This document shows, piece after piece, positions 10,626-21,744 of a DNA stretch of 64,000 nt (positions are counted from its first letter, which is position 1; every line of letters starts with the position of its first letter). A program made the translations under genes and the position numbers. The notes beneath the pieces are model-generated. The model made no database searches. It was given only the letters and a program-made list of their open reading frames with translations, and was not told the DNA's origin. This stretch comes from Sandaracinaceae bacterium (GTDB taxonomy: Bacteria > Myxococcota_A > Polyangia > Polyangiales > Sandaracinaceae): NCBI GenBank assembly GCA_040218145.1, contig JAVJQK010000094.1, positions 1 to 64,000 on the forward strand, read 5' to 3'.

Positions 10626-11400
10626 GCGCGCGGTCGTGTCGGGACGCGGGAGCGAGCGAAGCGAAGCGCGCTGCCTCCACCCCGCCAGGGCGGCCAGCGA
10701 GCGCGTAGCGCGAGCGCGAGCCGGCCAACGGCGTGGGTTGCTGTCGTGTCGGAGGAGCGAGCGAAGCGAAGCGCGCAGTCTCCATCGCGCCATGGCGGCC
10801 AGCGAGCGAGGGCGTAGCGCCAGCGTAGCCGGCCGACGGCGTGGGTTGCTGTCGTGTCGGGGGAGCGAGCGAAGCGAAGCGCGCAGTCTCCATCGCGCCA
10901 TGGCGGCCAGCGAGCGAGGGCGTAGCGCCAACGAAGCCGTCCGACGGCGTGGGTTGCTGTCGTGTCGGGGGAGCGAGCGAAGCGAAGCGTGCAGCCTCCA
11001 CCCCGCCAGGGCGGCCAGCGAGCGAGGGCGTAGCGCGAACGAGAGCCGTCCGACGGCGTGGGTTGCTGTCGTATCGGGGGAGCGAGCGAAGCGAAGCGCG
11101 CAGCCTCCAGCCCGCCAGGGCGGCCAGCGAGCGAGGGCGTAGGGCGAACGAAAGCCGGCCGACGGCGTGGGTTGCTGTCGTGTCGGGGGAGCGAGCGAAG
11201 CGAAGCGCGTTGTCTCCCTCGCGCCAGGCAGCGAGGGAGGCGCGTTGCGAGCGATGGCGTAGGGCGAACGAAAGCCGTCCGACGGCGTGGGTTGCTGTCG
11301 TATCGCGGGAGCGAGCAAAGCGAAGCGCGCTGCCTCCATCGCGCCAGGGCGGCCAGCGAGCGCGAAGCGCGAGCGCGAGCCGCGGGGGCCCCAGTGCCCC
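10626..11400. repeat. Tandem array of 108-120-bp non-coding units
   Basis: The motif GCGTGGGTTGCTGTCGT recurs at 10731, 10839, 10947, 11056, 11165 and 11285, preceded by a degenerate unit near 10626, giving about seven units of 108, 108, 109, 109 and 120 bp. Each unit carries a run of GAGCGAGCGAAGCGAAGCG and a small inverted repeat. The inverted repeat is CGCCATGGCG in some units and CCGCCAGGGCGG in others. The variable unit length and the absence of ribosome sites argue against coding, although GC richness leaves long open frames on both strands. It fills the gap after the MFS gene. Confidence 0.8.
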
Positions 11401-18188: not shown

Positions 18189-18204
18189 CGAGGCGAGCGC
18201 GCGC

Positions 18205-18612
18205 TCAGCGCGGACACACGCCGGCCACACATCGGGAGCCCTGCCCCGGCGGGGCGCCGAGGTCGTCCAGCCTCGCGCCGACAATCCTCCCTCGCTCGAC
18301 GGACAGCACCAGCGCGCAGCCGTCGATGGAGAGGAGCGTGGCACAACCGTCGGCGACGTCGTACGCGAGGGTGTGATCTCGCGAGCGGTCCGGCTCACCG
18401 AGCAGCGCCAGCGACTCTCGGACGCTGGCGCCTTGGACTCGTGAAGCCATGAGCTCGGCCAGGTCGGCGTCGCGGTGCATGGCACCTCGCCGCCACCGCT
18501 CCGCGTTCGACGGAAGCAGATACGCGACCCAGCACAGGCCGAGCCCGAACAGCGCCAGGGCTGCCAGCGTCATCAGCTCGGGATGTCGCGTTGCGAGTCG
18601 CTTCGAGGCCAT
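18205..18612 (-). CDS. Small single-pass membrane protein
   Basis: This 135-residue protein has one hydrophobic segment near residues 14-34 (LMTLAALALFGLGLCWVAYLL). A C-terminal extracytoplasmic domain contains a helix-turn (SVRESLALLGEPDRS) followed by short strands, faintly reminiscent of the BamE/SmpA fold. Four Cys residues in the C-terminal part could pair. The upstream region is an 800-bp non-coding stretch with a tandem array. Confidence 0.65.
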   Translation of the reverse strand: MASKRLATRHPELMTLAALALFGLGLCWVAYLLPSNAERWRRGAMHRDADLAELMASRVQGASVRESLALLGEPDRSRDHTLAYDVADGCATLLSIDGCALVLSVERGRIVGARLDDLGAPPGQGSRCVAGVCPR

Positions 18613-18927
18613 GGAACAGGTCTCTCAGTGTACACAGGTCGCCTGGGATGGGGACGATGGCGACGAGGAACCCGAGGTCCACGCGGTCAGAACGCGCTGG
18701 GCATCACACGGGGCGGTTCATGAGTGCCATGTGCACCTCGGAGGTGAGGCGGCTCCTCGGGCCGGGCCATTCGCCTCTCGCCACCGCGCTCCGCCGACGC
18801 TCCTCAGGTGAGAATGTGTCGCGGAGGCTCCAAGAAGCGGCGTCTGTCGTGCTCAGGCTCCGAAGTCTCAGCTCCGACGCCGACGACCCGCGCGCAAAGT
18901 GAAAGTTCGGCGTTCCAACTGGGTCAG
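18613..18927. other. Intergenic region upstream of the membrane-protein gene and before the 41-bp array
   Basis: No convincing coding sequence was found. Short open frames here lack ribosome sites and continue antisense to the neighbouring gene. The last 35 or so bases (for example TTCCAACTGGGTCAG) already resemble degenerate units of the following array. Promoters for the minus-strand gene at 18612 are expected here but none is distinctive. Confidence 0.5.
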
Positions 18928-19417
18928 CTCAGTCCACTCGAAGATCGCACCGGCTGCACTCTGGAAACTCAGTCCAGTTGATAACGGGAATCGACTGAAC
19001 TCTGGAAACTCAGTCCAGTTGATAACGGGAATCGACTGGTCTGTGGAAACTCAGTCCAGTTGATAACGGGAATCGACTGAACTGGGAAATCTCAGTCCAG
19101 TTGAGAACGGGAATCGGCTGGTCTCTGGAAACTCAGTCCAGTTGATAACGGGAATCGACTGAACTCTGAAAACTCAGTCCAGTTGATAATGAAAAGCAAC
19201 TGGGCTCTGTAGACAGAGTAAAAACGGTTCCGGTTTCACTTTCGACTCTGGAGGCTCAGTCCAGTTGATAATGAAGAGCAACTGGGCTCTGTAGACTCAG
19301 TGAAAACGGTTCCGGTTCCACTTTCGACTCTGGAAGCTCAGTCCAGTTGATGGTGAATGGCAACGGACTCTGGAGTCTCGGTTCAGTTGGCAGCGCGTAT
19401 CGTTTTGTCTCTGTTCA
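18928..19417. repeat. 41-bp tandem repeat array with 82-bp higher-order part
   Basis: CTCAGTCCAGTTGATAAC-type units start at 18928, 18968, 19009, 19050, 19091, 19132, 19173, 19214, 19255, 19296, 19337 and 19377, a period of 40-41 bp over 12 units. From 19173 two diverged unit types alternate. Type A contains CAGTTGATAATGAA and CAACTG; type B contains AAAACGGTTCCGGTT. This gives an 82-bp period. Type A units carry an inverted repeat CAGTTG/CAACTG; in the earlier units CAGTTGA faces TCGACTG, still pairable through a G-U. The array is much richer in A and T than its surroundings and not in multiples of three. It lies downstream of galT. Confidence 0.9.
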
Positions 19418-20302
19418 GCTCTGCCGGAGGGCGCGGGCGGCGTCTTCGGGGGGGACGACGACGATCATGTCGCCGGTGCTGAGCTCGAAGCCGGCGTCGC
19501 CGCCGGTGCGGGGGAGGAGCTCGAGGTGCCACCAGGCGTCGACCTGGCGGAGCACGAGGTTGTAGTCGCGCACGCCCACGGCCTTCAGGCGGCGGATCGC
19601 GTCGCCGACCCGGCGGGAGAGCGCGCGGAGCTCGGCGTCGGTGGCGTCGGCGAAGCGGCCGCGGGGCGCGGTGGGGACGAAGCGGACCTCGTAGGGGCGG
19701 GTCGGGGCGAAGGGGCAGTGCGTGAGGAGGGCCTCGTCGTCCCAGAGCACGCGCTCGGAGGCGCGCTCACGCTCGAGCTCGGTCGCGTGGAGCGGGGCGC
19801 CGCGCTCGCGCTCGTGGGCGCGGGCGAGGGCGCGGCGGGTCGCGAGGTCCGCGGGCTCCCAGTCGATGGCCACGATCTGCGAGTGCGGGTGGGGCTGGCT
19901 GCTGCCCGCGCGGCGGCCGCGGTTGCGGAAGAAGAGCACCTCGGGGTGACGCGCCGACAGGGCGGCGACGCGGTCCCGGTAGAGGCGCCACAGCGCGAGC
20001 GCGTGGTCGGGGGAGAGATCGTCGAGATCGGTGCCGTGCGCGGCGTCGTCGATGCCGATCTCGTGGTCGCCGCCCGGCAGCGACGCGAGCGGGTACTTGT
20101 TGCGCACCACGCGCACTCTCCACGCGCCGTCCTCGGGCCAGCGCGCGAGGGTCTCTTCGGTGTCGGCCTCGTGGCCGGGGCAGAAGGGGCAGCGGCCGGC
20201 GGGCTCGGGCAGGCCCCCGGGCTTGGCGGCGCCGAGCCCGCGGCGGCCGGGCGCGAGCACGATGGAGCGGCCGGTGAACGGGTCGAAGCGGCGCTCGCTC
20301 AT
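19415..20302 (-). CDS. galT: Galactose-1-phosphate uridylyltransferase family (GalT)
   Basis: This 295-residue HIT-superfamily protein shows the catalytic HPHSQ at 138-142 (His at 140 would carry UMP) and a zinc-type CPFC at 38-41. A second conserved region HLELLPRTG lies near 268. This is slightly shorter than the classical ~350-residue GalT and similar to the archaeal/actinobacterial forms, so a related nucleotidylyltransferase activity is possible. Its ATG overlaps the stop of the upstream ligase gene (ATGA), implying coupled expression. Its 3' end touches the 41-bp array. Confidence 0.87.
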   Translation of the reverse strand: MSERRFDPFTGRSIVLAPGRRGLGAAKPGGLPEPAGRCPFCPGHEADTEETLARWPEDGAWRVRVVRNKYPLASLPGGDHEIGIDDAAHGTDLDDLSPDHALALWRLYRDRVAALSARHPEVLFFRNRGRRAGSSQPHPHSQIVAIDWEPADLATRRALARAHERERGAPLHATELERERASERVLWDDEALLTHCPFAPTRPYEVRFVPTAPRGRFADATDAELRALSRRVGDAIRRLKAVGVRDYNLVLRQVDAWWHLELLPRTGGDAGFELSTGDMIVVVPPEDAARALRQS

Positions 20303-21744
20303 ACGGGCCCGAGGAGGCGCGGCTTCATCACCTTGCCCATCGCGTTGCGGGGGAGGGCGTCGACGAAGCGGACCTCGCGCGGGCGCTTGTGCGGGGTGAG
20401 CTGCGCGGCGACCAGCTCGGTCAGGGCCTCGCCCGCCACCGGCTCGCGCGCGACCACGAAGGCCACGATGCGCTCGCCCAGGTCGTCGTCGGGCACGCCG
20501 AGCACGGCCACCTCGGCCACCGCGGGGTGCTCGAGGATCGCCGCCTCCACCTCGCCCGCGCCGACCTTGTAGCCGCCGGTCTTGATGAGGTCGGTCGCCC
20601 GACGGCCGACGATGCGGATGGCGCCGTCCGCGGTCCGGGTCGCGAGGTCGCCGGTGTAGAACCAGCCCTCGTCGTCGATCACCTTCGCGGTCGCGTCGGG
20701 GCGGTTCAGGTAGCCGGGGAAGACGTTGGCGCCCCGCACCGCGATCTCGCCGAGGGTGGCGTCGTCGTGCGCGTCGAGGGTCGCGCGCGCGTCGTCGACG
20801 AGCTTCAGCTCGATGCCGGGCAAGGGAGGACCGACGTACCCGGGGCGCGGGCCGCCCGCGGCGGGCACGGCGCAGTTGATCAGGGTCTCGGTCAGCCCGT
20901 AGCGCTCGAGCACGCCCCGGCCCGCGATCGCCTCGATGCGTCGATGCTCCCGGACGGGCAGGCCCGCCGAACCGCTCACGAGGAGGCGCGCCGCGCGCAG
21001 CCCGGCCGCGACCTCGGGATCCCCCTCGGCCGCCTCGGCGAGCCGGTGGTACATGGTCGGCACGGCGAAGAACATCGTCTGGCCGCGCCGGAGCGCCGCG
21101 CTGACCGCCTCGGGCGAGAAGCGCGGCAGCCAGTCGAGCGCGCCCCCGACGCGCAGGGCGCCGAAGAGGCCGAGCACCAGGCCGTGCACGTGAAAGAGCG
21201 GCAGCGCGTGCACCACGGTGTCCAGCGCGCTCCAGCCCCAGGCCTCGATGAGGCCGTCCAGGCAGGTCGCGGCGTTCTCGCGGGTGAGCACCGCGCCCTT
21301 CGGCGCGCCGGTGGTGCCCGAGGTGTACAGGACCAGCAGCGGCGCGCCGTCGCAAGGCGCGCTCGGCATCGCGCCCTCGGCCGGCCGCAGCTCGATCGCG
21401 ACCGCGTCGGGGGTGCGGTCGACGACGGCGGCGAGGTCGGAGGCGAGCACGCACCTCGGCGCCGCGTCCGAGAGGATGTGGCCCAGCTCGCGCGGCCCGA
21501 GCTTGGGGTTGAGCGGCACGCTCACCACGCCGCCGGCCGCGTGCGCGGCGAGCGCGACCATCGTCTCGAGCGAGGGCTGCGTCCAGACGGCGACGCGATC
21601 TCCCTCGCCGATTCCGTCCGCGCGCAGGCGGGCCAGGTGGCCGACGATGGCGGCGGCGAGCGCGCGGTGGCTCAGCTGCGCGTCGTCGAGGCGAAGCGCG
21701 GGGCGGTCGTCCGGCTCGTGCAGGCGCGGAAAGAGCTCGTTCAC
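20299..21744 (-). CDS. AMP-forming acyl-CoA ligase, malonyl-CoA-synthetase-like
   Basis: This 481-residue ANL enzyme is started at GTG 21744 (VNELFPRL), as the frame upstream shows no similarity. The P-loop is LYTSGTTGAPKG (about 148-159). The motifs RYGLTET (about 282), YTGDLATRTADG (about 365) and GRRATDLIKTGGYKVGAGEVE follow. The C-terminal catalytic Lys lies in NAMGKVMKP. Its size and motifs are close to MatB-type and related short-carboxylate ligases; the true acid is unknown. It overlaps galT by four bases, an unexpected pairing of acyl activation with sugar nucleotidyl transfer. Confidence 0.88.
   Translation of the reverse strand: MNELFPRLHEPDDRPALRLDDAQLSHRALAAAIVGHLARLRADGIGEGDRVAVWTQPSLETMVALAAHAAGGVVSVPLNPKLGPRELGHILSDAAPRCVLASDLAAVVDRTPDAVAIELRPAEGAMPSAPCDGAPLLVLYTSGTTGAPKGAVLTRENAATCLDGLIEAWGWSALDTVVHALPLFHVHGLVLGLFGALRVGGALDWLPRFSPEAVSAALRRGQTMFFAVPTMYHRLAEAAEGDPEVAAGLRAARLLVSGSAGLPVREHRRIEAIAGRGVLERYGLTETLINCAVPAAGGPRPGYVGPPLPGIELKLVDDARATLDAHDDATLGEIAVRGANVFPGYLNRPDATAKVIDDEGWFYTGDLATRTADGAIRIVGRRATDLIKTGGYKVGAGEVEAAILEHPAVAEVAVLGVPDDDLGERIVAFVVAREPVAGEALTELVAAQLTPHKRPREVRFVDALPRNAMGKVMKPRLLGPV

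Follow-up and report, generated by a model that had tools for sequence, protein, structure and literature searches.

A 41-bp palindromic tandem array in a Sandaracinaceae genome, putatively an orphan of a gene-linked class of intergenic arrays in Polyangiales

At the F-plasmid site sopC, a 43-bp repeat occurs twelve times in tandem; every copy contains an inverted repeat to which a ParB dimer binds, and the site lies near the gene of its binder (PMC9178275). Two other described systems bear on the array reported here: REP/BIME elements, whose copy number usually exceeds 100 per genome (PMC2817692), and TIGR arrays, whose 36-nt RNAs have 9-nt variable spacers and work with a Nop-domain protein (PMC12045711). 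Repeats are normally recognised by their sequence, but what is conserved in the arrays described below is a spacing of four DNA turns together with dyad symmetry. Both outlast the sequence across families, and the arrays are tied to a gene family without known function.

The window analysed is a 64,000-nucleotide stretch of a Sandaracinaceae genome, and the focal array (C94) occupies positions 18928-19419. The original prediction of a twelve-unit 41-bp array proved real: all 12 units are exactly 41 bp long with no indel (unit starts 18928, 18969, 19010, 19051, 19092, 19133, 19174, 19215, 19256, 19297, 19338 and 19379). TRF agrees, reporting period 41 at 18954-19189 (89% matches) and period 82 at 19163-19372 (88%), and the covariance model R1 finds nine matches in the window (E<=0.04). 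Autocorrelation peaks at lag 82 (0.74), followed by lags 164 (0.62), 41 (0.61) and 123 (0.57), with all other lags at or below 0.34. The array is also AT-rich relative to its surroundings, as had been noted (GC 49.5% versus 72.4% for the window), and the proposal that it is non-coding is supported, no ORF of at least 80 aa crossing it. On this ground a coding repeat was rejected, periods 41 and 43 not being multiples of three; that three 42-bp arrays in the wider set have 41-bp relatives also counts against coding, although for some 42-bp arrays, whose period is a multiple of three, a coding reading may remain. An array of terminators found no support, since the single terminator-like site in 18200-20400 lies outside the array and shuffled sequences yield the same number. 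The array sits just beyond the 3' end of a GalP_UDP_transf-like gene (19415-20389, minus strand; PF01087, E 2e-6; start codon uncertain) and upstream of the start of a 135-aa ORF of no family (18205-18612, minus strand). A second, unrelated tandem array is present in the window at 10637-11362 (period 108, 6.6 copies per TRF).

Type A units (18968-19214, plus strand, consensus CTCAGTCCAGTTGATAACGGGAATCGACTGAACTCTGGAAA) carry the pairable inverted repeat CAGTTGA/TCRACTG, confirming an earlier observation, and their dyad axes recur every 20.5 bp (18986.0, 19006.5, 19027.0, 19047.5 and on). Two type B units, at 19215-19255 (plus strand, palindromic core AAAACGGTTCCGGTTTCAC) and 19297-19337 (plus strand), produce an A-B-A-B-A alternation spanning 19174-19378. 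Inverted, the first of them resembles by eye the first unit of three related arrays introduced below (C7, C71 and C68). The first and last units of the array are degenerate, and a degenerate leading unit with GTGAAAGTT..GCGTTCCAACTGGG lies at 18880-18927 (plus strand), the C7 array beginning, by eye, in the same way.

The array has an ortholog in the MAG Sandaracinaceae bacterium MED-G138, a second genome of this species, where it is two units shorter and has a single type B unit; the 82-bp order is therefore recent. The reported alternation is thus present in the focal array but is not stable, and the likening of it to a centromere-like higher-order satellite is not supported, since the alternation reflects a recent local duplication and related arrays occur at many intergenic sites. 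Seven arrays of our genome were traced to the same sites in MED-G138, with copy numbers two units apart at C94 and C122 and at least three apart at C85. Between the strains, 7.5% of aligned sites differ in the focal array, compared with about 1% in its flanks and 0 to 3.4% in the other arrays, in line with the earlier suggestion of a fast-evolving locus.

A search for further arrays placed the focal one in a family. An 82-bp query retrieved related arrays at C80 and C7, and a relaxed pattern allowing up to three mismatches added C68 and C71, together with single or short occurrences at C85, C120 and C122. All of those in our genome are in 41-bp register, share the unit pattern CnCAGTycAGTTGA-N9-TCRACTGnnCTGnG, and have a second dyad across the unit boundary (CTGGGAATTCCCAG, TGTGCGCGCACA, TGTGCTGGCACA) whose sequence varies among arrays while the palindrome is retained. 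Dyad axes in this family fall every 20.5 bp; in identical units one dyad implies another half a period off, and the second axis then adds no independent evidence. Across our genome and MED-G138, eight related arrays lie elsewhere, three of which (C80, C68 and C668 of MED-G138) are upstream of paralogs of a gene we call gene B. A covariance model of 27 units gave 61 matches at 8 loci in our genome and 70 in MED-G138; eight further genomes from the family had none. Similarly, when the unit served as a DNA query against 57 relatives, no match turned up beyond our genome itself, and a pattern scan of genome contigs found arrays in MED-G138 only; because the units diverge, sequence searches are blind to such arrays. 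Single pattern matches in two cyanobacteria, a Brocadiia MAG and two viral contigs had no 41-bp periodicity and were set aside. In 1.26 Mb of our genome, on contigs picked partly for holding arrays, 41 and 82 are the sole recurrent periods not divisible by three.

Two further observations concern arrays in the same genome. An unrelated 42-bp palindromic array (TGTACCTTTGAAGGTACA, CGCAGCCGCGCTGCG) occurs at L144:10956-11123 (G000:C128 near 110,998) with no known gene B adjoining. At C122 (L029:4219-4510 and L065:4000-4340), a 41-bp array keeps mainly GCGGAGTTTYCAGCG, the other roughly 26 bp varying from unit to unit.

Gene B is a multi-copy gene, with about ten copies per genome, encoding an all-helical, DUF6261-like protein of about 270 aa; none is present in the focal 64-kb window. 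A profile of 21 members detected it in 45 of 145 Polyangiales genomes. One member (L247) passes the DUF6261 (PF19775) cut-off with 29.3 versus 27 bits, those at other loci match below it, and Sandaracinaceae members match weakly (best E 0.06). No account of DUF6261 function was found in the literature searched. The predicted structure (mean pLDDT 85) has eleven helices, a low-confidence Pro-rich tail and no recognised DNA-binding domain; in alignment A2, most gene-B proteins have such a C-terminal tail, Pro-rich and acidic, again modelled with low confidence. Foldseek returned no match to the model at E 0.001, and VIA returned no confident neighbour, its best Z of 8.3 being within the chance range for helical bundles. 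One member weakly matches an NCBIfam transcriptional regulator model (E 0.006) and the others do not. PADLOC reported nothing convincing, and a tblastn search of plasmids gave no match.

Linkage was surveyed at 76 gene-B loci, covering 1.2 kb on each side and allowing periods of 25-60, with shorter periods excluded. The question was prompted by the gene-B-linked arrays described above, and the other genomes are independent of that discovery set. An adjacent tandem array was found at 41 of the 76 loci, in five families, and at nearly half no array was detected. The 44 arrays comprise 28 upstream and 13 downstream at 40-43 bp, plus one each at 44, 36 and 58; the 42 with periods of 40-44 (28 upstream, 14 downstream) have a mean of 42.02 (s.d. 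0.89), equal to four times 10.51 bp. These 42 are not all independent, as some G001/G006 pairs are orthologs. In Sandaracinaceae, arrays lie upstream of gene B at 19/36 loci; in the other families they lie upstream (9/36) or downstream (12/38). Seven of 11 gene-B loci in Sandaracinus have an upstream array, versus two unlinked arrays in 400 kb (Fisher p=1e-10), the background density resting on one Sandaracinus genome and our own. In 400 kb of G004, a family member without gene B, every 42-bp repeat seen was either coding or within an open frame, none forming an intergenic array, which, coming from one genome, is at most suggestive. Three of its apparently coding 42-bp repeats (DYPDVTPSLIGVARHYPDVTP) lie within 7 kb (L259:1695, 3850 and 6881).

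Array sequence is less constant than array period. At the C124 gene-B paralog, the upstream array has an 82-bp period and a quite different, GC-rich unit; this array (L160:2640-3010) is built of two different 41-bp halves and folds no better than shuffles. Unit likeness follows gene-B likeness, being found in 12 of 16 pairs of gene-B proteins with at least 50% identity versus 35 of 844 pairs below that. Unit length is held at 40-44 bp, or four turns of B-DNA, while array sequence drifts freely. One might instead suppose a neutral minisatellite, made by slippage and unequal exchange and without function. The shifts by whole units between strains and the fast turnover of sequence are what such a repeat would show, and where units are near-identical, unequal exchange alone could hold the register. 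However, a period that stays at 40-44 though the sequence is lost, and linkage to one gene family across five families, are not expected of neutral repeats, and we regard this explanation as improbable.

The focal array itself scores 34 against the linked C668 array and 31 against the linked C80 array, where the 99% level of the null is 15; scores this far above the null make it an array of the gene-B-linked type, and we favour regarding it, from its sequence, as an unlinked (orphan) copy. The genes flanking orphan arrays occur in every orientation, which gives no sign of a regulatory role. They could alternatively be dispersed copies of a selfish palindromic element, mobilised or maintained by gene B in the manner of REPIN/RAYT. 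Consistent with dispersal, the orphans C94, C7 and C71 resemble linked arrays from their own species in sequence, identity of 86% between the arrays at C68 and C71 extends over 425 bp inside unrelated flanks, and the loops of REP elements are likewise very short (PMC3733652). Yet the seven traced arrays are found at unchanged positions in the sister strain, the covariance model matches no more than about 8 loci per genome, and gene B has no transposase domain per Pfam. Moreover, the sole strong match in the genome to a RAYT-like Y1 transposase (G000:C113:225027-225389, L067; PF01797, E 8e-35) has no R1-type array nearby. We consider this origin unlikely, marginally more so than the RNA explanation weighed next.

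A unit typically contains a single palindrome or two, the two often separated by half a period. Palindromicity exceeds that of tandem arrays of shuffled units in 42 of 49 arrays (KS 1e-10), folding energy falls in the best tenth against shuffled-unit arrays in 24 of 49 (KS 1e-10), and the two strongest dyads lie about half a period apart in 17 of 49, versus 18% expected (p=0.004). These palindromes could act as DNA or as RNA. Under the latter explanation, the tandem hairpins of an array would be transcribed and processed into units of about 42 nt that function together with the gene-B protein, much as in TIGR-Tas or type III toxin-antitoxin arrays. RNA-protein pairs typically show such a fixed unit length next to a single protein family, before or after the gene, and many arrays fold far better than their shuffles (z -13 to -4). 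In our genome's family, as oriented here, G-T mismatches also outnumber A-C mismatches 57:28, the units being related and the orientation chosen by motif. Over 42 arrays, however, sense and antisense strands fold equally well (p=0.62), so that strand asymmetry is absent. The centres of the palindromes also argue against RNA: with palindromes chosen by their outer pairs only, and overlapping palindromes of a few arrays counted more than once, the innermost pair is complementary at chance (13/44) whereas the second innermost is complementary in 28/44 versus 11.8 expected (p 3e-7). The dyads thus run to within 2 bp of the centre, and a centre of two bases leaves too little room for an RNA loop but is compatible with a protein dyad or a DNA hairpin. 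Furthermore, array sense opposes both neighbouring genes at C94 and C71, no match was found among 4227 Rfam families, and several arrays are nearly homogeneous and therefore without variable guides. Covariation was rejected as proof of RNA, as it is clear at about 2 of 14 pairs and shuffles reach nearly equal pairing. Post hoc and weakly, the better-folding strand is opposite the gene in 19 of 28 upstream arrays and is the gene strand in 9 of 14 downstream ones. The structured RNA that had been suggested is thereby weakened, and we hold it unlikely; it nevertheless remains first among the alternatives, followed by the selfish element and then neutral repeats.

Of the functions originally proposed, a protein-binding array is the one we favour, on its period and dyad geometry. 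Phased protein binding is the simplest account because spacing and symmetry are kept while sequence is not, and because linkage to the gene family is strong. We put at just under an even chance the full statement that the focal array is an orphan of a Polyangiales intergenic array class tied to gene B, whose dyads are putative sites for a phased dimeric protein. Period, dyads, linkage and the kinship of orphan to linked arrays are observations. What follows on a bound protein, on which protein it is, on cooperative binding and on any downstream effect is inferred from them. Each dyad would most likely be the binding site of a dimeric protein. Through the four-turn period, dimers that follow one another would share the same face of the helix and so bind cooperatively, as they do at phased operators and at partition sites built as arrays. 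The cognate factor is probably gene B or a partner from its locus, and the focal array, like other orphans, would offer extra sites for the factor of the C80/C68/C668 paralogs. More tentatively, and with the chances leaning against it, we propose a two-part chromosomal system of Polyangiales in which a DUF6261-like helical protein is paired with its own four-turn palindromic array, many diverged pairs coexist in a genome, orphans act in trans, and spacing is selected while sequence is free to diversify. If this is true, DUF6261-like proteins gain a first concrete candidate for a partner, and period plus linkage becomes a rule for finding loci that sequence searches miss.

Compared with known systems, CRISPR arrays are similarly tandem, partly palindromic and intergenic, but homogeneous arrays of the present kind repeat the whole unit and leave no unique spacers, and no cas genes were seen among the flanking proteins scanned. 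TIGR-Tas likewise combines a single protein family with an adjacent array of fixed period whose units hold two elements each (PMC12045711). The present arrays differ in their period of 40-44 and in that several are near homogeneous (e.g. C80 and L195/L215), departing from the TIGR layout of two 8-12 nt repeats with variable spacers of about 9 nt; gene B has no Nop-domain match in Pfam or among the top Foldseek and VIA matches, where absence of a fold match cannot exclude one. REP/BIME elements and REPINs with RAYT are likewise intergenic palindromes, some tandem, some gene-linked, with very short loops (PMC3733652, PMC2817692), whereas these arrays have few loci, a fixed four-turn period and no linked Y1 transposase. 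The 8 loci matching the model in our genome, a count of model-matching sequences only, fall below the REP/BIME copy number, and inspection of our genome's family and of 49 array consensuses revealed no common GTAG or CGTC tag at the palindrome foot. The array class appears to work most like sopC/SopB, with which (as ParBS/SopBC partition sites) it shares four-turn tandem repeats with a dyad per unit. Unlike sopC, these arrays are chromosomal, occupy many loci per genome and are not conserved in sequence; the linked protein is all-helical with no ParA gene seen beside it, and no ParB or HTH Pfam match was found in gene B or among the flanking proteins scanned at 7 arrays of our genome. Because no ParB-type gene is adjacent, we do not count the arrays among partition sites. 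The design itself, in which a palindromic tandem array adjoins the gene of its likely partner, is a known one.
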